A stretch of DNA of 27,913 nucleotides from Streptomyces flavochromogenes. Its GTDB lineage: Bacteria; Actinomycetota; Actinomycetes; Streptomycetales; Streptomycetaceae. The notes under the pieces were generated by a model, which saw only the letters and a program-made list of their open reading frames with translations, ran no database searches and was not told where the DNA came from. Position 1 is the stretch's first letter; the number at the start of each line of letters is the position of its first letter. Below, piece after piece: positions 17,594 to 27,913 of this stretch. A program made the translations under genes and the position numbers. The stretch lies in NCBI RefSeq assembly GCF_000717595.1, contig NZ_JNZO01000056.1:1-27913 (forward strand), given 5' to 3'.

Positions 17594-18043
17594 TCACCCT
17601 CCCGCGGGCAGACCGGTCCGGGGCGCCGTCGCGAGGTGGGCCCCGACCCGCTTCACCATCAGCGTCATCTCGTAGGCGACCTGGCCGACGTCGGAGTCCG
17701 CGTCGGCGAGCACAGCCAGACAGCTGCCGTCGCCGGCGGCCGTGACGAAGAGGAAGGCGTCCTCAAGCTCGACGACCGTCTGGCGGACCTTGCCCGCCTC
17801 GAAGTGACGGCCGACGCCCTTGGCGAGGCTGTGGAAGCCGGAGGCCACGGCGGCCAGGTGCTCACCGTCCTCCCGGGTCAGGTCCTGGGACGCGCCGGTG
17901 GGGAGGCCGTCGCTGGAGAGCACCAGGGCCTTCCGGATGGACGCGACGCGCTGCACGAGCTCGTCGAGGAGCCAGTTCAGCTCGCCGTTGCCGTTTCCAG
18001 GGCCGGAGGTGGTGCTGGATGCTGCGGCGTTCGGTGCGGTCAT
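17594..18043 (-). CDS. cvnB: Conservon roadblock/LC7 protein CvnB
   Basis: A 149-residue roadblock/LC7-fold protein (LNWLLDELVQRVASIRKALVLSSDGL is the family's first helix and strand). Roadblock proteins act as dimeric scaffolds or GTPase-activating partners for small GTPases, here CvnD. The first ~20 residues are a Ser/Gly/Asn-rich flexible tail. Its ATG overlaps the cvnA stop (ATGA), so it is coupled to the kinase gene. Confidence 0.95.
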   Translation of the reverse strand: MTAPNAAASSTTSGPGNGNGELNWLLDELVQRVASIRKALVLSSDGLPTGASQDLTREDGEHLAAVASGFHSLAKGVGRHFEAGKVRQTVVELEDAFLFVTAAGDGSCLAVLADADSDVGQVAYEMTLMVKRVGAHLATAPRTGLPAGG

Positions 18044-21003
18044 CGACCGTCCCCCTCGGGTGTCGTTCCAGGTGCTGTCGGGTCGTCAGGGTCGGCGTTG
18101 TGCTGTCGCCCGCGCTGCCAGCCGCGCTGCATGGCGGCCATGCGCGCGCGTACCTCCTCGGCGTCGCGCTCGAAGGAGTCGGCGTCCGCGGGCGGGGCGC
18201 CGCCGTTCGTACGGGCGTCGGGGCGTCCGGCCGTACCGCGGTCGTCCGGGCCGTCGGTCGCGCGCAGCTGGGGCGCGAGGCTGGCCTGCCGGACGCGGCG
18301 GGGCAGTCCGCCGAACGGCTCGGGGCTCGCCGGCGGCGGCACGGGACCCTCCGGTGGTACGGGGACGAGGGTGGGGCCGGTTCCTCGTGGGGCGATGGGC
18401 AGGCCGTGCTGCCGGCCGGTGCCGCGCGGGGGTACGGGCTGGACGGCGGGCCGGCCGGTTCCGCTCGGGGGCACCGGCCGCTCCTCCTGCCCGGTTCCGT
18501 AGGCGTGGTGGTCCGTGACGCCGGGGCCGTCCGTCACCCGGCCGGGGGCGGGGTGCGCCCGGCCGTTGAGCGGCTGGTCCAGGTCGGGGAGCGCGTGGGC
18601 CCGCTCGGGCCCTTCGGCGTCCCGGCTCCGGCCCGTTCCGTCCGCGCCACGGCCGCGGTTCGGCTCGTCGAGGCGGCGGCCGTGATCCACGACGAGGGTC
18701 GGCGTACGACGACGCGGCAGCGGTACGGGGCCGAGGACGCCCGCGTCGGTGGACTTCTCCTCCTCGCCGTGGCCGCTCGTCCGGTCCGCGGGCTGCTGGT
18801 GCTGCTCTCCTGCGGGGGTGAGTCCGGCACGCCGCCGGCCACGGGGCCGGAAGAGACCGCCGCGTTCGCTCTCGGTGTCGAGGAGGTCCGCCGCGCCGTC
18901 GAGGAGTACCTCGAACTCCTCGCTGCCGAGCGGCCCCTCGAGCTCGACGGGTCCGTCGAGCGGGCCCGGTGCCTCGGTCACGTCCGGGACCCTGGCGAGC
19001 GCCGGGCGGCGGCTGGGCAGGACGCCGTCCTCGGCGGTCACGCCGTCGGCCGGGCCGGTGCGCTCCAGGGTCTTGCGGTCCAGGCGGAAGCCGGCGCCCT
19101 GGGTCTCGGGCGCGTCGGTGAGGAGCGCGGCCGGGATGAAGACGACGGCGGTGGTCCCGCCGTACGGGGAGGTCTGGAGCGAGACGCGGACGTTCTGGCG
19201 CTGGGCGAGCCGGCTGACCACGAAGAGGCCGAGCCGGTCGGTGTCCGAGAGCTCGAACTCGGGGGTCTCGGCGAGCCGGAGGTTGGCGTCGAGCAGGGCG
19301 TCCGGGTTCATGCCGAGGCCGCGGTCGTGGATCTCCAGGGTGAAGCCGTTGGCGACCCGCTCGCCCAGCACCTGGACGGCGGTGTGCGGGGGCGAGAAGA
19401 CCGTGGCGTTCTCGAGGAGTTCGGCGATGAGGTGGGTGAGGTCCGCGACGGCGGGGCCGCCCACGCCGAGGCGCGGGAGCCGGCGGACCTCGATGCGCTC
19501 GTAGTCCTCGACCTCGGCGACGGCGGCACGGACCACGTCCATGAGCTGGACGGGCTTGCGCCACTGCCGGGAGGGTGCGGCGCCGGAGAGGATGACGAGG
19601 CCCTCGGCATGCCGTCGCATGCGGGTGGTGAGGTGGTCGAGCCGGAAGAGGTCGGCGAGCTCGTCGGTGTCCTCGGTGCGCCGTTCCATGGTGTCGAGGA
19701 GGGTGAGCTGGCGGTGCAGGAGAACCTGGTTGCGACGGGCGAGGTTGACGAACACCTCGGAGACGCCGCGCCGCAGCTCGGACTGTTTCACGGCGGCTTC
19801 GACGGCGGCGCGCTGGAGGGTGTTGAGCGCCTGGCCGACCTGGCCGACCTCGTCCTGTCCGTATCCCAGGTGGGGGACTTCGGTGCCGACGTCGACCTGT
19901 TCGCCCGCGGCGAGCCGTCGCATGACGCTGGGCAGGCGGACACCGGAGACCTCCTGGGCCTCCTTCTGGAGGCGGCGCAGGTCGCGGACGAGGTCGCGGC
20001 CGATGCGGACGGAGATGACGATCGAGGCGAGCAGGGCGAGGAAGCCGAGGACTCCGGCGACGCCTGCCTTGAGGAGGACGCTGTACGCGGCGGGCTGGAC
20101 ACGGTCCTGGTAGCGGTCGCCGGCCGCGGTGTTCTCCCTGGCCAGGTCGTCGAGGACGGGGCCGGCGTTGTCCTGCCAGTAGGCGGGGGTGACGGCGCGG
20201 GGGCTGTCGGTGGGCCCCTGTTCGATGATCGCGTTCTCGGCGGTGCGCAGCGGCTGGGTGTCGGGGCTGCGCCAGTACTTCTCGAAGCGGTCGCGCTCGG
20301 CGGTGGGCAGGAGTTCGAGGTTGACCTCGTAGAACTGCTCGCGGTTGGCGACGAGGTCGGATATCTCGCGGATCTCCCGGGCGGTGACCCGGTCCGCGAC
20401 GAGCGCGGAGAGGACGAGCGCGTCCTCGCGGGAGAGCAGCTCACGCGCGCGGGTGATGCCGACGAGGGCGCGGCCCTGCTTGTCCATCTCCACGTTCTCG
20501 AGTGCGTGGAGGGTGACGAGGAAGCTGTAGCAGGGGTCGACGAGCCGGTTGTAGAACTCGAGGGCCTGCATCCGGCCGATGTCACGGTTCTCCACCGAGC
20601 GGCGCAGCGAGGCGATGCCTTCGAGCGCTTCGAGGAGGGAGGAGAGCCGCTGGGCGGTGACGGGCCGCATCTCCTCGCGTACGCCGGGGTCGGCGGCGTT
20701 GGCGCGGATGCGGGCGATCTGGCGGTCGGTCGCCCGGCGGGTCTCGTTGAGGGAACCGAGGGCGTTGGAGCCCCGGGGGTCGGCGAGGTAGATGAGGGAC
20801 TGGCGCCGTTCGAGCTGGATGACGCGGGCGGTGTCCTCGAGGGGGTAGCCGACCTTGTCGACGATGTAGCCGACGTCGAGGAGTTGGTCGGCCTCGCGTC
20901 CGGTGAGGGCCGTGGCGAATCCCCACAGGCACGTCAGGGAGACGAGCGGTACGAGCAGCAACGCCACGATCTTCCTGCGGATGGACTTCCCGCGAAAGCG
21001 CAT
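18040..21003 (-). CDS. cvnA: Conservon sensor histidine kinase-like protein CvnA with NIT domain
   Basis: A 987-residue membrane protein. Membrane helix 1 is at residues 11-33, an extracellular nitrate/nitrite-sensing-like (NIT) domain at about 45-300, and helix 2 at about 310-332. A HAMP segment follows (to about 400). The dimerization-type helices contain DLFRLDHLTTRMRRHAE (His457 as candidate phosphoacceptor), and the HATPase domain has ELLENATVFSPP, DRGLGMN and GLFVVSRLAQR (about 520-625). The last ~350 residues are Pro/Arg/Gly-rich and look disordered. No response regulator is encoded here; in conservons the output goes to CvnB-D. The ATG at 21003 is the first gene of the operon. Confidence 0.94.
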   Translation of the reverse strand: MRFRGKSIRRKIVALLLVPLVSLTCLWGFATALTGREADQLLDVGYIVDKVGYPLEDTARVIQLERRQSLIYLADPRGSNALGSLNETRRATDRQIARIRANAADPGVREEMRPVTAQRLSSLLEALEGIASLRRSVENRDIGRMQALEFYNRLVDPCYSFLVTLHALENVEMDKQGRALVGITRARELLSREDALVLSALVADRVTAREIREISDLVANREQFYEVNLELLPTAERDRFEKYWRSPDTQPLRTAENAIIEQGPTDSPRAVTPAYWQDNAGPVLDDLARENTAAGDRYQDRVQPAAYSVLLKAGVAGVLGFLALLASIVISVRIGRDLVRDLRRLQKEAQEVSGVRLPSVMRRLAAGEQVDVGTEVPHLGYGQDEVGQVGQALNTLQRAAVEAAVKQSELRRGVSEVFVNLARRNQVLLHRQLTLLDTMERRTEDTDELADLFRLDHLTTRMRRHAEGLVILSGAAPSRQWRKPVQLMDVVRAAVAEVEDYERIEVRRLPRLGVGGPAVADLTHLIAELLENATVFSPPHTAVQVLGERVANGFTLEIHDRGLGMNPDALLDANLRLAETPEFELSDTDRLGLFVVSRLAQRQNVRVSLQTSPYGGTTAVVFIPAALLTDAPETQGAGFRLDRKTLERTGPADGVTAEDGVLPSRRPALARVPDVTEAPGPLDGPVELEGPLGSEEFEVLLDGAADLLDTESERGGLFRPRGRRRAGLTPAGEQHQQPADRTSGHGEEEKSTDAGVLGPVPLPRRRTPTLVVDHGRRLDEPNRGRGADGTGRSRDAEGPERAHALPDLDQPLNGRAHPAPGRVTDGPGVTDHHAYGTGQEERPVPPSGTGRPAVQPVPPRGTGRQHGLPIAPRGTGPTLVPVPPEGPVPPPASPEPFGGLPRRVRQASLAPQLRATDGPDDRGTAGRPDARTNGGAPPADADSFERDAEEVRARMAAMQRGWQRGRQHNADPDDPTAPGTTPEGDGR

Positions 21004-21438: not shown

Positions 21439-21807
21439 ATGGAACACGAGGCGCGGTCGGCGCGGCAGTTGTGGGTGGAGGACGAGCGGGCGCGACGGCG
21501 CATGCCGGACCCGGTGCGCGCCGCCGCGGTGCGGGCCGTGATGATCACATCGGTGACGCTCGTCCAGGGGGTCGTGGCGTTCTTCAGCACCGTGACGGGC
21601 TCATGGCTGGCGTTCCCGGTGACCGTCAGCGCGGTGGTCTCCACCGTCGTGGCGACCTGGAGTGTGCTCGACGTCTGGATCACCCGTCAGGTGTGGCGCC
21701 AGCGCAACGGTGTGGTGTCGGAGCCGAGCAGCACGGCGCGTCCGCCGCTCCGTGCGAAGCGCGGAGAGGGCCGGGCGGAGACGGCGTCGCTGTCCGAGGC
21801 GGCCTGA
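21439..21807 (+). CDS. Small two-helix membrane protein, unknown function
   Basis: A 122-residue protein with a charged N-terminus (1-30), two adjacent membrane helices (about 33-52 and 57-80) joined by a short turn, and a basic, Arg-rich cytosolic C-terminus. No family is recognised. ATG at 21439 follows GGGGAG by 10 nt. It stands alone, divergent from the conservon operon and convergent with the SMC-like operon, and ends just before a strong hairpin. Any link with either neighbour is unproven. Confidence 0.78.
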   Translation: MEHEARSARQLWVEDERARRRMPDPVRAAAVRAVMITSVTLVQGVVAFFSTVTGSWLAFPVTVSAVVSTVVATWSVLDVWITRQVWRQRNGVVSEPSSTARPPLRAKRGEGRAETASLSEAA

Positions 21808-21820
21808 CCCGGCAGAACGA

Positions 21821-21865
21821 AAGTGAGCGGCCCGGCCCCCGTCGAGGGGGCCGGGCCGCTCACTT
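21821..21865. terminator. Strong bidirectional terminator hairpin
   Basis: A 20-bp perfect stem (21821-21840 with 21846-21865) around the 5-nt loop GTCGA. The outer ends AAGTGAG/CTCACTT would give an A-rich upstream and U-rich downstream side on both strands. It begins 14 nt after the plus-strand stop and 6 nt after the minus-strand stop, closing both the small membrane gene and the SMC-like operon. Confidence 0.92.
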
Positions 21866-21870
21866 GTGCG

Positions 21871-24800
21871 CTAGAGGGCCGCCGGCCGGCTCGGGTCGTC
21901 CGCCGTGTGCCGGCGGAACATCCGCGTCGCCGTGATCTCGCCGTGGATCGTCTCGCCCTCCGCCGCCGTCTGCGGCAGACCCGGACGCAGGTGTTCCTCC
22001 ACGCTGATGTACTTGAGGCCGGCCCGCAGGTCGGCGTCGTTGCGCAGCCGGATCACCAGCGGGAACTCGGCGAGCGCGGTCGTGTCGAACAGACCCGTCG
22101 TGTACAGGAGCTGCACGCCCAGCGCGTCCGACACGGCCCGCTGGAGCTCCAGCAGGTACGTGGCGTTGGCGCGGCCGATCGGGTTGTCCAGGAACAGGGT
22201 GCCCGCGTGCCGGTGCTTGTCGCGGCCCCGGTCGTTGGACCGGAGCGCCGCCATCGTGCAGTACAGGGCGATGGCCGCGGTGAGCAGCTGACCGCCGGAG
22301 AAGACGTCGCCCATCTGCCCGACGGGCACCCGCTCGGCACGCAGCACCGCGTCCGGCTTGAGGATCTCGACGGAGACGCCCTTGGGTTCGAGCGCCGCCT
22401 GGACTCCGCGGAGCAGCAGGGACATGCCGTCACGGCGGAGGTCGGAGTTCTTCCTGACCGCGGCGCGGGTCGCCTCGTCGACGACCTCGCCGAGCCGCTC
22501 CGCGAGGGTGGCCTGGTCGGGCTCCTCGAAGCGGATCCGCAGGAACTCCTGGCCCGACCACTCCCCGAGGCCCTCGGGGAGGCGGGAGAGCCGCTGTGCC
22601 GAGCGGAGCGTCGCGAGCGAGGACTCCACCAGGCCGCGCAGCCGGTCGACGATCGAGTCGCGGTTGCGCTCCAGCTGCTCCAGCTCGTCGGTGAGGACCC
22701 GCAGCCGGGGCGCGAAGGCCTCGGCCCACTTGGCGGCGTGCTCGGGCAGCGCCGACGCGGGCAGTTCGCGGATCTGCTGGCGGGCCGGGGTGCGGACCTG
22801 CTCGTAACGGGTGGAGTTGGCGTGCCGTACGAGGATGTCGCTCGCCTCGCGGACGGCGGCGTCGGCCGCCGACAGCTCGGCCGTGCAGGAGCGCAGCGAG
22901 CGCCGCGCCTCCGAGGCCGTCGTACGGGCCTCCTCCAGGCTGCCGGGGTACGGCTCGGTCTCCTCCCGCTCCTCGTCGGTGTGGTCCCGGAGCAGGTCCC
23001 GCAGCAGGGCGGCGGTCTCGTCGAAGCCGCCCGCCGCGTCCTCGGCGGCCCGGTGGTCCCTGAGCAGTCCGGTGTGGGCGGCGCGGGCCGCCTCCAGGGC
23101 GTCGGCGCGGGAGGCGAGTTCGGCCGTGGCCGTACGGAGCAGGGCCTGGGCCCGCTCGGCGTCGGCGGGGACGAGGTCCTCGGGCAGCTCGGTGTGCTCC
23201 TCGCCGTCCTCGGGGGCGAGGCGCTCGGCCTCGCCGCGCAGCCGGCCGAGCTTCTCGCTGGCCTCCGACGCGCGGGTCTCCAGCATCTGCACGAGGGACT
23301 CGGCGCGGGCGGCGGCGGCCTGCCGGGACGGGCCGTCGGCGCCGTCCGTGGACTCCAGGAGCTGCTCGGCCCGGGTGCGGACCTTGTTGGTGAGGCGGTC
23401 GAGCTCGGTGAGGGCGGCGGACTCGTCGCCCTCGGCGCGGGCCTGCTCGGCCCGCAGGTCGGCGCCGACCCCGACCTTCTCGTACAGCTGGGACGCGGCC
23501 CGGTAGGCCTCGCGCAGGGTGGGCAGCGCGGCGCGGGGCGCGGGCGCGTCGCCCTCGGGGAGGGTGTCGGGTGCGCCGGCGATCTCGGCGCGCTCGGCCC
23601 GCAGGGCGCGGGCGGTGCGGTGGGCGTCGTCGGCGGAGCGCTGGGTCGCGCGCCGGTCCTCGTCGGCGGCACGCGCGCGTTCCAGACAGGTCTGGGCGCG
23701 GGCCTCGGCCTCGGCTGCGTCGTCGGCGAGTTCACGGAGCTTGGCCTGCCAGGCGGAACGCTCGCGCAGCCGGAAGGCGAGGCCCGCGAGGGCGTCGGCG
23801 ACCCGGCGGGCGCGCTGGGCCGCCTCCTGGCGCTCGTCCCGTACCTGGGCGGCCTCTGCGGCGGCCTCGTCGGCCTCCGCACGCGCGGTGCGGGCCTCGT
23901 CCAGGGTGGCGGTCGCGGCCTCCGCGGTCTCCCGGGCGGTCGTGGCGACGGCCGAGAGTTCGGCGAGCATCCCGGGCGGGCAGTCGGCGCGCCACGCGCC
24001 GATCCGGGCCGCGAGGGAGCGGTCGCCCGCGAGGCGGGCGGCGAGGGTACGGATCTCCTCGTCGCGGGCGGCGGCGCGGGCACGCAGGGCGTGCCGCTCC
24101 TCGTCGGCCGCGTGCTCGTCGTGCATGGCCGGGTTCGGCGGGACGAGGAACACGCCGTGGACACCGCTGTCGTCCGCGGTGTCCTGCGCCGGTACGGGGG
24201 CGAGCAGGGCGGCGGCCGTGCCGACGGCCACCGCGGAGCGCGGCAGCAGGGCAGCGGTGCCGAGGACCTCGCGGGCGCGGCCGTACGAGACGGCGTCGGT
24301 GATCACGACGCCGTCGACCAGCTCGGGGCGGGCGGCGAGGACCCGCGCGTGGTCGGCGGGGTCGACGGCCTGGGCGAGGTAGCGCCAGCCGGGGAGGGCG
24401 GGGATGCCGTGCTCGCCGAGGTACTCGACGGTGGCGAGGACGTCGGGGCCCGGCGGCAGCAGGCCGCCGTCGCCGAGGGCGCCGAGGATCCGGGAGTCGT
24501 CCGCCGCGGCGGTGCGCAGCTCGAAGAGCTGGCGCTCGGCGGAGGTGACGGACTGGTCGAGCATGCCGCGCAGTTCGTCGGCGTAGCGGTCGAACTCGGT
24601 GACGGTGAGAGGGCCCTGGGGCTCGTCGCTCGTGTCCGTTCCGGCGGATTCGTCGGTGTCGGCGGCGGGGGTCGCGGCGCGCTGTCCGGGCAGGGGCGAG
24701 CCTGCGGCAGGGAGGTGCGCGCCGGTGGCGGGAAGACTCAGGAGTTCGGCGAGCCGCCGCTCGCCGGCGAGCGACTCGGCGGCGCGGCGCTCCGCGTCGT

Positions 24801-26571
24801 AGGCGTTCCCGGCGGCCTCGGCGGCGTCCGCGGCACGGGCCGCCGCGAGTTCGGCGCGGGCCTCGGCCCCGGCGGCCTCACGCGCGCGGTCCGCTGCGGT
24901 GCGGGCGGCCTCGCGCGCGGTGTCCCAGGCGGCGACCGTCGTCTTCTCGGCATCGCTCGCGGCGAGCGCGGCGCGTGCGGGGTCGGCGTCGGGGGCGGTG
25001 TCGTCGAGCCAGCCGGCCCGTACGGCCTCGGCGGTCTCCTGCTCGACCTCGGCGAGACGCTGGCGCAGGTGCCCGGCCTCGCTGCGGGCCCGCTGGGCCT
25101 CGGTCGCGGCGGCCGTGGCGTCGCGGTGAGCGGTCTCGCCGGCCTCCTGGAGGGCGGTGGAGCGCTCTTCCTCCTCGGCCGCGTGGCGCTCGCCCTCCTC
25201 GGCGGCGGCGGAGAGAGCCCGTACGAGGTCGGCGGCCGCCTCGGCGCGGGCCGCGAGCGCCGGTGCGGCGTCCCGCTCGGCCTCGCGGATGGCGGCGGCC
25301 ACGCGCGCGGAGCGGTCGCCGGCGGCGCGGTGGCGGAGGACGACCTCGGCCGCCTGCCAGGCGGAGTGCACGGTGCGGGCGTCGGTGAGTTCGCGGCGCT
25401 GGGACGCGGCGCCCTTCTCGGCTGCGGTCAGCGCCAGGGAGGCGTGCCGGTAGGCGAGTTCGGCGGCGATGAGGGCGGCGCGCCCGCGCGCGGTCTCGGC
25501 CTCGGCGACGGCGTGTCCGGCGGAGGTGACCTGCTGGGCGAGTTCGGCTCCACGCGCGCGTTCCACGGCGGCGCGGGCGGAGAGCCGGCGGGCCAGGGTA
25601 CGGGTGCGGCGCTCGGCCGCCGTGTGGATGTCGCGTGCGGTGGAGCGGGTCCCGGCGGCCTCGACGATCCGGTTGAGGAGGTCGACCGAACCGGCCGTGA
25701 ACTCGCGCTCGGCGGTGAGCTCGGCGCGGCGGCCGAGCTTGTTGCCGAAGCCTCCGACGAGGTCGGCGAGACCGTCGGTGTCCCGGGTGTCGGTGACGGC
25801 CCGCAACAGCAGGTCGGTGAAGTCGGAGTCCTTCTTGACCGCGAAGAGGCCGGCCGCCTCGCCCTCGTCGGCGTTCATCTCGCGCTGGTAGCGGAAGAGT
25901 TCCGGGTCGAGTCCGAGCTCGCCGAGGTGCTCGTTCCAGCGGTCGTGGATCTCCTCCCAGTAGACCTCCAGGTGCGGGTACGCCTTGCCCGCCTCCGTGA
26001 TCGCGTCGCGGAAGCCCTTCATGGTGCGGCGCCGGCCGGTCGCGCCGGAGGCGCCCTCGACGGGAGCTCGGACGGACGTCGCCTCGGCGACGGGGAGGTT
26101 GTCCAGGCTGAGTCCGGGGCCGGGACGGAACGAGTACCAGGCCTCGGCGAACTTCCGCGGGTCGGAGGAGACCTGCCGGCCGCGCCACTCGCTGGCCTTG
26201 CCGACGACGACCAGTTCACCGGTGAGGGTGTGCTGCCACTCCAGGGCGACGTGCCCGCAGTCGTCGGCGAGGAGGAACTTGCGCAGCACGCCGGAGCTGG
26301 CGCCGCCCAGGGTGTTGCGGTGGCCCGGGAGCATGACCGAGAAGATCAGCTTGAGGAGGACGGACTTGCCGCCGCCGTTCTCCAGGAAGAGCACGCCCGC
26401 GGGGGCGGGGCGGCGCGGCGGGCCGACCGGCTCCTCCTCGAAGAACTCCGCCTGGGTGGGGGCGGGGTGGGGCACGGGCGCGCCGACTCCCCGCAGGTCC
26501 AGGACGGTGTCGGCGTAGCGCGCACCGGCGGGACCGATGGAGTACAGGCGGACCCGGGACAGCTCGTACAT
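21871..26571 (-). CDS. SMC/MukB/JetC-like coiled-coil ATPase
   Basis: A 1566-residue protein with split ABC-ATPase ends. The N-terminal head has a P-loop LENGGGKS (63-70), with Leu where GxxxxGKS has its first Gly. Two long Ala/Glu/Arg-rich coiled coils (about 300-690 and 820-1330) flank a central globular region (about 696-818) in the hinge position. The C-terminal head has the signature FSGGQLL (SGGQ 1425-1428) and the Walker B LFLDNPIG, where Asn1463 follows Asp1462 in place of the usual catalytic Glu. This is the layout of condensin-like DNA loop extruders (MukB, MksB, JetC). It is the last gene after kleisin-like and KITE-like partners, starting 52 bp after the latter with only a weak GAGAG site. 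Chromosome organisation or plasmid defence is inferred, not shown. Confidence 0.85.
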   Translation of the reverse strand: MYELSRVRLYSIGPAGARYADTVLDLRGVGAPVPHPAPTQAEFFEEEPVGPPRRPAPAGVLFLENGGGKSVLLKLIFSVMLPGHRNTLGGASSGVLRKFLLADDCGHVALEWQHTLTGELVVVGKASEWRGRQVSSDPRKFAEAWYSFRPGPGLSLDNLPVAEATSVRAPVEGASGATGRRRTMKGFRDAITEAGKAYPHLEVYWEEIHDRWNEHLGELGLDPELFRYQREMNADEGEAAGLFAVKKDSDFTDLLLRAVTDTRDTDGLADLVGGFGNKLGRRAELTAEREFTAGSVDLLNRIVEAAGTRSTARDIHTAAERRTRTLARRLSARAAVERARGAELAQQVTSAGHAVAEAETARGRAALIAAELAYRHASLALTAAEKGAASQRRELTDARTVHSAWQAAEVVLRHRAAGDRSARVAAAIREAERDAAPALAARAEAAADLVRALSAAAEEGERHAAEEEERSTALQEAGETAHRDATAAATEAQRARSEAGHLRQRLAEVEQETAEAVRAGWLDDTAPDADPARAALAASDAEKTTVAAWDTAREAARTAADRAREAAGAEARAELAAARAADAAEAAGNAYDAERRAAESLAGERRLAELLSLPATGAHLPAAGSPLPGQRAATPAADTDESAGTDTSDEPQGPLTVTEFDRYADELRGMLDQSVTSAERQLFELRTAAADDSRILGALGDGGLLPPGPDVLATVEYLGEHGIPALPGWRYLAQAVDPADHARVLAARPELVDGVVITDAVSYGRAREVLGTAALLPRSAVAVGTAAALLAPVPAQDTADDSGVHGVFLVPPNPAMHDEHAADEERHALRARAAARDEEIRTLAARLAGDRSLAARIGAWRADCPPGMLAELSAVATTARETAEAATATLDEARTARAEADEAAAEAAQVRDERQEAAQRARRVADALAGLAFRLRERSAWQAKLRELADDAAEAEARAQTCLERARAADEDRRATQRSADDAHRTARALRAERAEIAGAPDTLPEGDAPAPRAALPTLREAYRAASQLYEKVGVGADLRAEQARAEGDESAALTELDRLTNKVRTRAEQLLESTDGADGPSRQAAAARAESLVQMLETRASEASEKLGRLRGEAERLAPEDGEEHTELPEDLVPADAERAQALLRTATAELASRADALEAARAAHTGLLRDHRAAEDAAGGFDETAALLRDLLRDHTDEEREETEPYPGSLEEARTTASEARRSLRSCTAELSAADAAVREASDILVRHANSTRYEQVRTPARQQIRELPASALPEHAAKWAEAFAPRLRVLTDELEQLERNRDSIVDRLRGLVESSLATLRSAQRLSRLPEGLGEWSGQEFLRIRFEEPDQATLAERLGEVVDEATRAAVRKNSDLRRDGMSLLLRGVQAALEPKGVSVEILKPDAVLRAERVPVGQMGDVFSGGQLLTAAIALYCTMAALRSNDRGRDKHRHAGTLFLDNPIGRANATYLLELQRAVSDALGVQLLYTTGLFDTTALAEFPLVIRLRNDADLRAGLKYISVEEHLRPGLPQTAAEGETIHGEITATRMFRRHTADDPSRPAAL

Positions 26572-26623
26572 GGCGAGGGACTCTCGTGCTCTCGTGCTCG
26601 GGAAGAACGGTTACGCGGGGCGG

Positions 26624-27550
26624 TTACGCCGACGGTGGCGCGTGGAAGGGCAGGCCCGCGTCGGCCGCGATCTCCAGGTCGTCGCCCTCGGGCGGCGGCA
26701 GGAGCGTGGCGGAGCCGTCGCTGACGGGGACGACGCCGAGTTCGAGGAGCTCGGCCATGGCTGCGGAACCGGCCATGTCGCGGACCTGGAGCTGATAGCG
26801 GGCGGTGGTCCGGTAGGAGCCGCCGCCCTCGTCCCCGGTGCGCTGGAGGAACCCGGAGTCGGTGAGGAAGGCGGCCGCCTTGCCGACGATGCCGGTGGTG
26901 GACCCGGCGAGACGGCGGGCGTCCTTGGTGGCGCCGGTGGCGCTGCGGCGGGCGTAGATCCGCCAGGCGGCCTCCAGACCGGGGGCGTCGGACGCCGGGT
27001 CGGTGTTCTCGCCCTGCTCCTCTGCGCGCTGCTCCAGACGCAGACACGCCTGCCGTACGAACGCGTCGACGCCGTTGACGGTGAGACGGCCGATGTACGC
27101 GTCGTCCGCGAGGTCCTCGGGGCGGGGGAAGGCCATGGCGGCGATGGCGAGATGGGCCAGGCCGTGCAGGAAGCGGTCGGCCGAGTCGGTGGAGGCGCGG
27201 CGCGCGTAGTCGCCCATGCGGACGGCGAAGACGGAGTCCTCGCCGGCGGTGACGGCCATCCCCGCGCGCGGGGAGACCTCCAGGACGATGAGCCCGAGAC
27301 CGGTCGCGACGGCGTCGGCGAGGCGCGCGAAGGCGGGGTCCTCGCGGTAGCGGCGCAGCAGTTCCGCGTACTCGGCGTCGCGGGCGGGGAGCAGCTTGGG
27401 CTGCAATCCGAAGGAGACGAGGCGGGCCGCGTCGGAGGCGTCGGCGGGGGTGACGGCGGGTGCGGCGCCTCCGCCCGTGGAGGCGGCCGGGGGCTGCGGG
27501 GGCTCCTGCTCGCCCCACGCGTCGGCGTACTCGGCGTGGGTTTCGCTCAC
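26624..27550 (-). CDS. KITE/MukE-like winged-helix subunit of the SMC-like complex
   Basis: A 308-residue protein. A Pro/Ala-rich flexible start (1-45) is followed by an alpha/beta part (about 50-115) and what look like two winged-helix units (about 120-178, and 190-265 with GIVGKAAAFLTDSGFLQRTG...RYQLQVRDM). Size, fold pattern and position between a kleisin-like gene and an SMC-like gene match MukE, MksE or JetB. Direct sequence identity to those is not visible to me, so the assignment rests on architecture. GTG at 27550 overlaps the upstream stop (GTGA), giving coupled translation. The gene precedes the ATPase by 52 bp. Confidence 0.75.
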   Translation of the reverse strand: MSETHAEYADAWGEQEPPQPPAASTGGGAAPAVTPADASDAARLVSFGLQPKLLPARDAEYAELLRRYREDPAFARLADAVATGLGLIVLEVSPRAGMAVTAGEDSVFAVRMGDYARRASTDSADRFLHGLAHLAIAAMAFPRPEDLADDAYIGRLTVNGVDAFVRQACLRLEQRAEEQGENTDPASDAPGLEAAWRIYARRSATGATKDARRLAGSTTGIVGKAAAFLTDSGFLQRTGDEGGGSYRTTARYQLQVRDMAGSAAMAELLELGVVPVSDGSATLLPPPEGDDLEIAADAGLPFHAPPSA

Positions 27551-27913
27551 GGCTGGGGCTCCTCGGTACGGCTCTCGGTCGATGGGGGGACGGCGGGGGT
27601 GACGGGCCCGGCGGGATCGGCGGGTGTGACGGGGCGGGGTACGGGCAGCGGGACCGGGGTGACGGCCGCGGGGCGCTCGGTGGCACCGGGGAGGCGTACG
27701 GGCGCGGCCGTGGTGTCCGTGAGGCGCACCGGGCGCACGGACGGGGTGCCGCTCCGGCGCTCGGCCGTCGTGCGGGACGGCTGCGGCACCGCCACGACCC
27801 CGAAGCGGGGCGGCGTGCCGGGGGCCCACGGGGACGGGTCGTCCGGCTCGCCCCGTGGTCCGGCCGGGGGGTCGATCCGGACGTGGCGGACGCGGGGGCC
27901 GGGGGTGGGGCTG
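27547..27913 (-). CDS. C-terminal tail of the first operon gene (possible kleisin-like subunit), incomplete
   Basis: Only the last ~121 codons are in the window and the frame is open to the right edge, so the start lies outside. The visible part is Pro/Val/Thr-rich and low in complexity (repeated P-V-x-P runs) with no recognisable domain. Its stop overlaps the start of the KITE-like gene. By position in MukFEB, MksFEB and JetABC operons it would be the kleisin (MukF/JetA) subunit, but nothing in the visible sequence proves that. An internal GTG at 27795 is probably not the start, because coding character continues upstream. Confidence 0.65.
   Translation of the reverse strand, partial: SPTPGPRVRHVRIDPPAGPRGEPDDPSPWAPGTPPRFGVVAVPQPSRTTAERRSGTPSVRPVRLTDTTAAPVRLPGATERPAAVTPVPLPVPRPVTPADPAGPVTPAVPPSTESRTEEPQP

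Follow-up and report, generated by a model that had tools for sequence, protein, structure and literature searches.

In Wadjet systems, the JetABC motor extrudes a plasmid, which JetD then cuts (PMC12647877, PMC10586767), and the MksBEF complex of Pseudomonas aeruginosa is regarded as a JetABCD that lacks JetD and plays a part in organizing the chromosome (PMC10586767); statements attributed to published work here refer to excerpts of the papers cited. Wadjet was reported to be enriched in Actinobacteria and towards the ends of Streptomyces chromosomes in excerpts of an actinobacterial defence survey that did not mention JetD-less loci (PMC10482375). Excerpts from three further papers (PMC13121528, PMC8410768, PMC8410849) treated Smc or Smc-ScpAB as the working Streptomyces condensin, and these excerpts did not mention a JetABC complex. 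The locus described here lies in Streptomyces flavochromogenes on contig NZ_JNZO01000056.1 (C56), which in its entirety, 27,913 nucleotides, forms the window of this study and is part of an 8.9-Mb draft genome in 169 contigs. It carries a type III Wadjet-like operon with the order jetA-linker-jetB-jetC and without the nuclease gene jetD. The original prediction, which had proposed a MukBEF/Wadjet-like SMC operon, was borne out by a JetC3 match and a KITE-type middle subunit, and missed the real point, namely the absence of JetD and the near-universal presence of the operon in the genus sample.

The absence of jetD was established with a hidden Markov model profile made from nine control open reading frames (ORFs), all belonging to the 13 JetD-linked loci used as positives; the profile found JetD in all 13 of these, 9 of which had supplied it. 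Among 99 core loci of the window's type, the same search found JetD in none, and 84 of these loci were informative: 82 extended past the end of jetC by at least 1 kb (tblastn), and two more (L135 and L216) were counted as the jetC frame held the C-terminal motif and kilobases followed. Of the other 15, one (L037) lacked jetC and the rest broke off where their contig ended. In the genome with L037 (G012), jetB stood alone amid unrelated sequence with a JetC match 2 Mb away, probably reflecting misassembly or rearrangement.

A working type III Wadjet with its nuclease supplied in trans, either an unlinked JetD or an unrelated enzyme, would also leave the locus without jetD. JetD3 was indeed present elsewhere in some genomes, since 21 of the 150 sampled from the genus gave a match at E<=1e-3 (11 strong, with E below 1e-40, and 10 weak), and two Streptomyces JetD3 genes, taken up below, lacked an adjoining jetABC. 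However, no JetD3 match at that threshold was found in 129 of the 150 genomes, that of the window included, and the 12 strong JetD3 places, in 11 genomes, adjoined a jetA, jetB and jetC of their own. In none of the 21 JetD3-bearing genomes was JetD3 beside the core jetB; it was distant on the same contig in 12 and on another contig in 9. Inspection of the conserved neighbors by eye, with no family search and no search for unrelated nucleases elsewhere, revealed no recognizable nuclease. A nuclease acting in trans is therefore quite improbable. In G102, two Wadjet III loci that include JetD and have the same JetA sequence (L147 and L148) were located near both ends of a 9.2-Mb contig (C1), in agreement with the published enrichment at Streptomyces chromosome ends (PMC10482375).

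The operon was nearly universal in the genus sample. JetB was detected in 143 of the 150 genomes and JetC3 in 147, some of which also held a JetD-linked copy. Of the seven JetB misses, four fragmented drafts still matched JetC (G062, G085, G132, G151), and three matched neither protein (G091, which is 78% complete, G124 and G128). The nearest named relatives of the window JetB were Streptomyces proteins, and all 80 retained loci were from Streptomyces. Within the order, JetA3 was found in 185 of 197 genomes, comprising 181/181 of the genus, 1/1 of a sister genus and 3/15 of other families (one weak). Across the class, it was found in 61 of 394 genomes (40 of the genus, 19 of family f20, one of f48 and one weak match in f19), while strong JetD3 matches (E below 1e-30) occurred in 9 of the 394. 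No JetD was found in the 12 fetched f20 jetABC loci reaching at least 1.2 kb past jetC; three f20 loci were full JetABCD systems, and in one locus among those of f20 (L243) jetC was split over two frames. The f48 genome (G657), whose JetB was 99.6% identical to a Prauserella protein, had no JetD in its jetABC locus (L255) and no JetD3 match in the genome. Core-type JetB was not seen on plasmids: the 5 matches among 72,556 plasmid records stayed below 60% identity, and none spanned 80% of the query.

The large protein matched the published PADLOC JetC3 profile (PDLC00588, Wadjet type III) at 1406.8 bits, and no Pfam or NCBIfam profile matched it at E<=1. The prediction of ATPase halves at both ends of a 1566-residue protein held, with Walker A near the N-terminus and the signature and Walker B near the C-terminus, and the lack of any NCBIfam match agreed with its not recognizing the protein as TIGR02680. 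Its further view that the protein is not a standard JetC was only half right; the type is already known, because the protein strongly matches the JetC3 profile. In an alignment of 16 diverse JetC3 proteins, the ATPase motifs were invariant, Walker A residues N65, G66, G68 and K69 among them, and conserved positions ran from D692 to G754. Because the regions on either side gave weak PDB matches, mostly to coiled coils, this stretch marks the approximate position of a putative hinge. An SbcC/Rad50-type repair protein could be invoked on the strength of an SbcC_Walker_B match in one of 16 JetC relatives (E 0.017). The JetB- and JetA-type partners, the absence of a CxxC zinc-hook motif from the 1566 residues and the lack of a recognizable Mre11-like gene among the conserved neighbors (by eye, no family search) made that identity scarcely credible.

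The middle gene, correctly described in the original prediction as encoding a winged-helix protein and starting in a GTGA overlap (the jetB GTG start overlaps the upstream TGA), was 49% identical over 251 aa to the JetB encoded by L040, a full Wadjet III locus, and PADLOC JetB3 models did not match it. The genome with L040 (G007) also holds the nuclease-free version of the operon, as L039. Its predicted structure retrieved MukE-MukF, MukBEF or JetABC entries as the top nine Foldseek rows, and JetABC chains as the two best rows in VIA. The model thus points to a probable MukE/JetB (KITE, winged-helix) fold.

Upstream of jetB, the window held a Pro-rich frame of which 121 C-terminal residues are present, because contig C56 ends at position 27913. 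The proposal that this Pro-rich protein is the third partner, and specifically the kleisin, did not stand, as in close relatives the frame is a separate ORF that lies between jetA and jetB and starts inside the stop codon of the preceding gene, which encodes approximately 520 aa and was identified in relative L039 as JetA3 (617.8 bits). The true jetA3 of this genome lay outside the window, at the end of contig C6 (G000:C6:463482-464957, JetA3 610.4 bits). The ends of C56 and C6 have 17 exact bases in common, and the remainder of the linker ORF probably sits at the end of C6. JetA would occupy the kleisin position, and its family assignment suggests that it is a kleisin. In 67 of 79 named Streptomyces loci examined, the jetA-jetB gap was exactly filled by the linker ORF, with four-base stop/start overlaps at both ends and a length anywhere between 9 and 331 aa. 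An ending resembling EEPQP recurred at the C-terminus, and otherwise only the coupling appeared to be conserved; the GAGGAG beneath that ending may be the jetB Shine-Dalgarno sequence. Because the coupling was conserved and the product was not, the linker is suggested to be a translational-coupling ORF.

All three genes were under purifying selection, with ratios of nonsynonymous to synonymous substitution (dN/dS) of 0.03-0.28 for jetA, jetB and jetC against five relatives, and of 71 named JetC frames, 66 to 69 still carried the ATPase motifs. The loss of a core component, JetD, is what would be expected of a decaying Wadjet remnant; however, the retained motifs and the selection on three genes left almost no room for decay. 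The JetA tree united the Streptomycetaceae core (12 rows) with the JetD-less f20 group (14 rows) in a single clade (98/99). Quick JetC trees separated the two groups, but forcing them together cost only 1.05 log units (approximately unbiased test, p-AU 0.468). The f48 locus L255, a JetA3-B-C arrangement without JetD, grouped among JetD-linked rows in both the JetA and JetC trees and is perhaps a second jetD loss.

We consider it moderately probable that the operon encodes a nuclease-free JetABC loop extruder derived from Wadjet III, acting on chromosome folding or segregation like Pseudomonas MksBEF. The JetC ATPase, with its coiled-coil arms and hinge, would form a complex with JetA at the kleisin position and JetB as the KITE subunit. 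It would load on DNA and most likely extrude loops with ATP, as JetABC and MukBEF do, and without JetD it would be unable to cut DNA. In mycelial bacteria, it could then serve chromosome folding or segregation beside Smc-ScpAB. Such a complex would have arisen in the Wadjet III family either by jetD loss or from a branch in which jetD was never present; by analogy with MksBEF, we infer that the dropping of jetD also occurred here in type III.

The likeliest alternative to this explanation is nuclease-free immunity, in which JetABC would sense and compact or silence circular plasmids or phage DNA uncut, as proposed for Smc5/6. JetABC belongs to an anti-plasmid family and is the shape sensor of Wadjet, and compaction and silencing by Smc5/6 have been described (PMC10586767). 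The near-universal presence in the genus, the conserved neighbors and the purifying selection, unlike the patchy JetD-linked loci (11/150), made immunity of this kind unlikely.

Several points qualify the chromosomal explanation. The distribution pattern alone separates chromosome folding from nuclease-free immunity. One Streptomyces JetD3 gene (L258, in G169) was accompanied by only a jetC fragment in the 17-20 kb fetched, and another (L262, in G187) by no jetABC gene in a stretch of that size. The Walker B motif of JetC reads LDNP, in which Asn occupies what we take to be the place of the catalytic Glu. The same LDNP motif occurred in 12 of 13 JetD-linked JetC3 proteins, L149 being the exception. 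The Asn is an unexplained caveat given that the Walker B mutant E1042Q of a type I MksB was inactive (PMC10123090).

Features of the window in S. flavochromogenes contig C56
Feature	Position	Strand	Basis
Sensor-kinase-like gene, presumably CvnA-type	18040..21003	-	
Small membrane-protein-like ORF	21439..21806	+	
Terminator-like hairpin	21822..21864	-	19-nt arms of full complementarity around a 5-nt loop, directly past jetC stop
jetC3-like SMC ATPase, 1566 aa	21871..26571	-	ORF and PADLOC JetC3 match
Walker B LFLDNP, JetC residues 1459-1464	22180..22197	-	motif, alignment
ABC signature SGGQ, JetC residues 1425-1428	22288..22299	-	motif, alignment
Approximate hinge, JetC ~residues 655-800, between two coiled-coil arms	24172..24609	-	inferred
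Walker A NGGGKS, JetC residues 65-70	26362..26379	-	motif, alignment
jetB-like KITE subunit, 308 aa, GTG start	26624..27550	-	ORF, identity to L040 JetB, predicted fold
Pro-rich linker ORF, C-terminal 121 aa and stop	27547..27913	-	truncated by contig end

The operon neighbors, compared by eye, were kept within each family and differed between Streptomycetaceae and f20; some of them recurred in 9 to 12 of 14 loci. Downstream of the operon, the small ORF converges on jetC and had relatives in 9 of 14 Streptomycetaceae loci, and the sensor-kinase-like gene in 10 of 14. The hairpin, situated where jetC and the small ORF converge, is probably a two-way terminator.

The locus bears on the question of how SMC machines pass between immune and chromosome-maintenance roles, for which MksBEF has been cited as a precedent. 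Streptomyces is genetically tractable and has published Hi-C data, and a nuclease-free JetABC that is core to the genus would make this switch directly testable, with the true JetABCD systems of some sister species as controls. Defence-gene counts that relied solely on JetC or JetA would score nearly every Streptomyces as Wadjet-positive. The nuclease-free Wadjet-type operon may be an overlooked chromosome organizer descended from a defence system. The fuller proposal, to which we give somewhat less than an even chance, is that it constitutes a second chromosomal condensin in Streptomycetaceae and at least one more actinobacterial family (in a different neighborhood), which arose from type III Wadjet by nuclease loss, helps to fold or segregate multi-genomic hyphal chromosomes and has been left out of current Streptomyces contact-map models.

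Compared with Wadjet type III, the JetC3 and JetA3 profiles matched strongly, JetB was homologous and the gene order A-B-C was the same; the differences are the lack of jetD at the locus and of a JetD3 match in the genome, a near-universal rather than patchy occurrence in the genus sample and the linker ORF that separates jetA from jetB. The TIGR02680 JetC of Wadjet type II was not matched by the window JetC (NCBIfam, E<=1). The operon belongs to the type III family instead of that of P. aeruginosa MksBEF, whose MksB was not compared by sequence. With MukBEF of E. coli it shares the KITE (MukE) fold predicted for the small subunit and apparently the overall subunit plan, but the JetA profile had no sequence match to MukF, and the JetC profile had no MukB match among the matches listed (60 of 69); Streptomyces also has Smc-ScpAB (PMC8410849). 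The MksBEFG/EptABCD systems of corynebacteria and mycobacteria are actinobacterial SMC-KITE-kleisin operons, as is predicted for this one, but they include the MksG/JetD nuclease and have plasmids as their target (PMC10123090, PMC7022226, PMC10586767).
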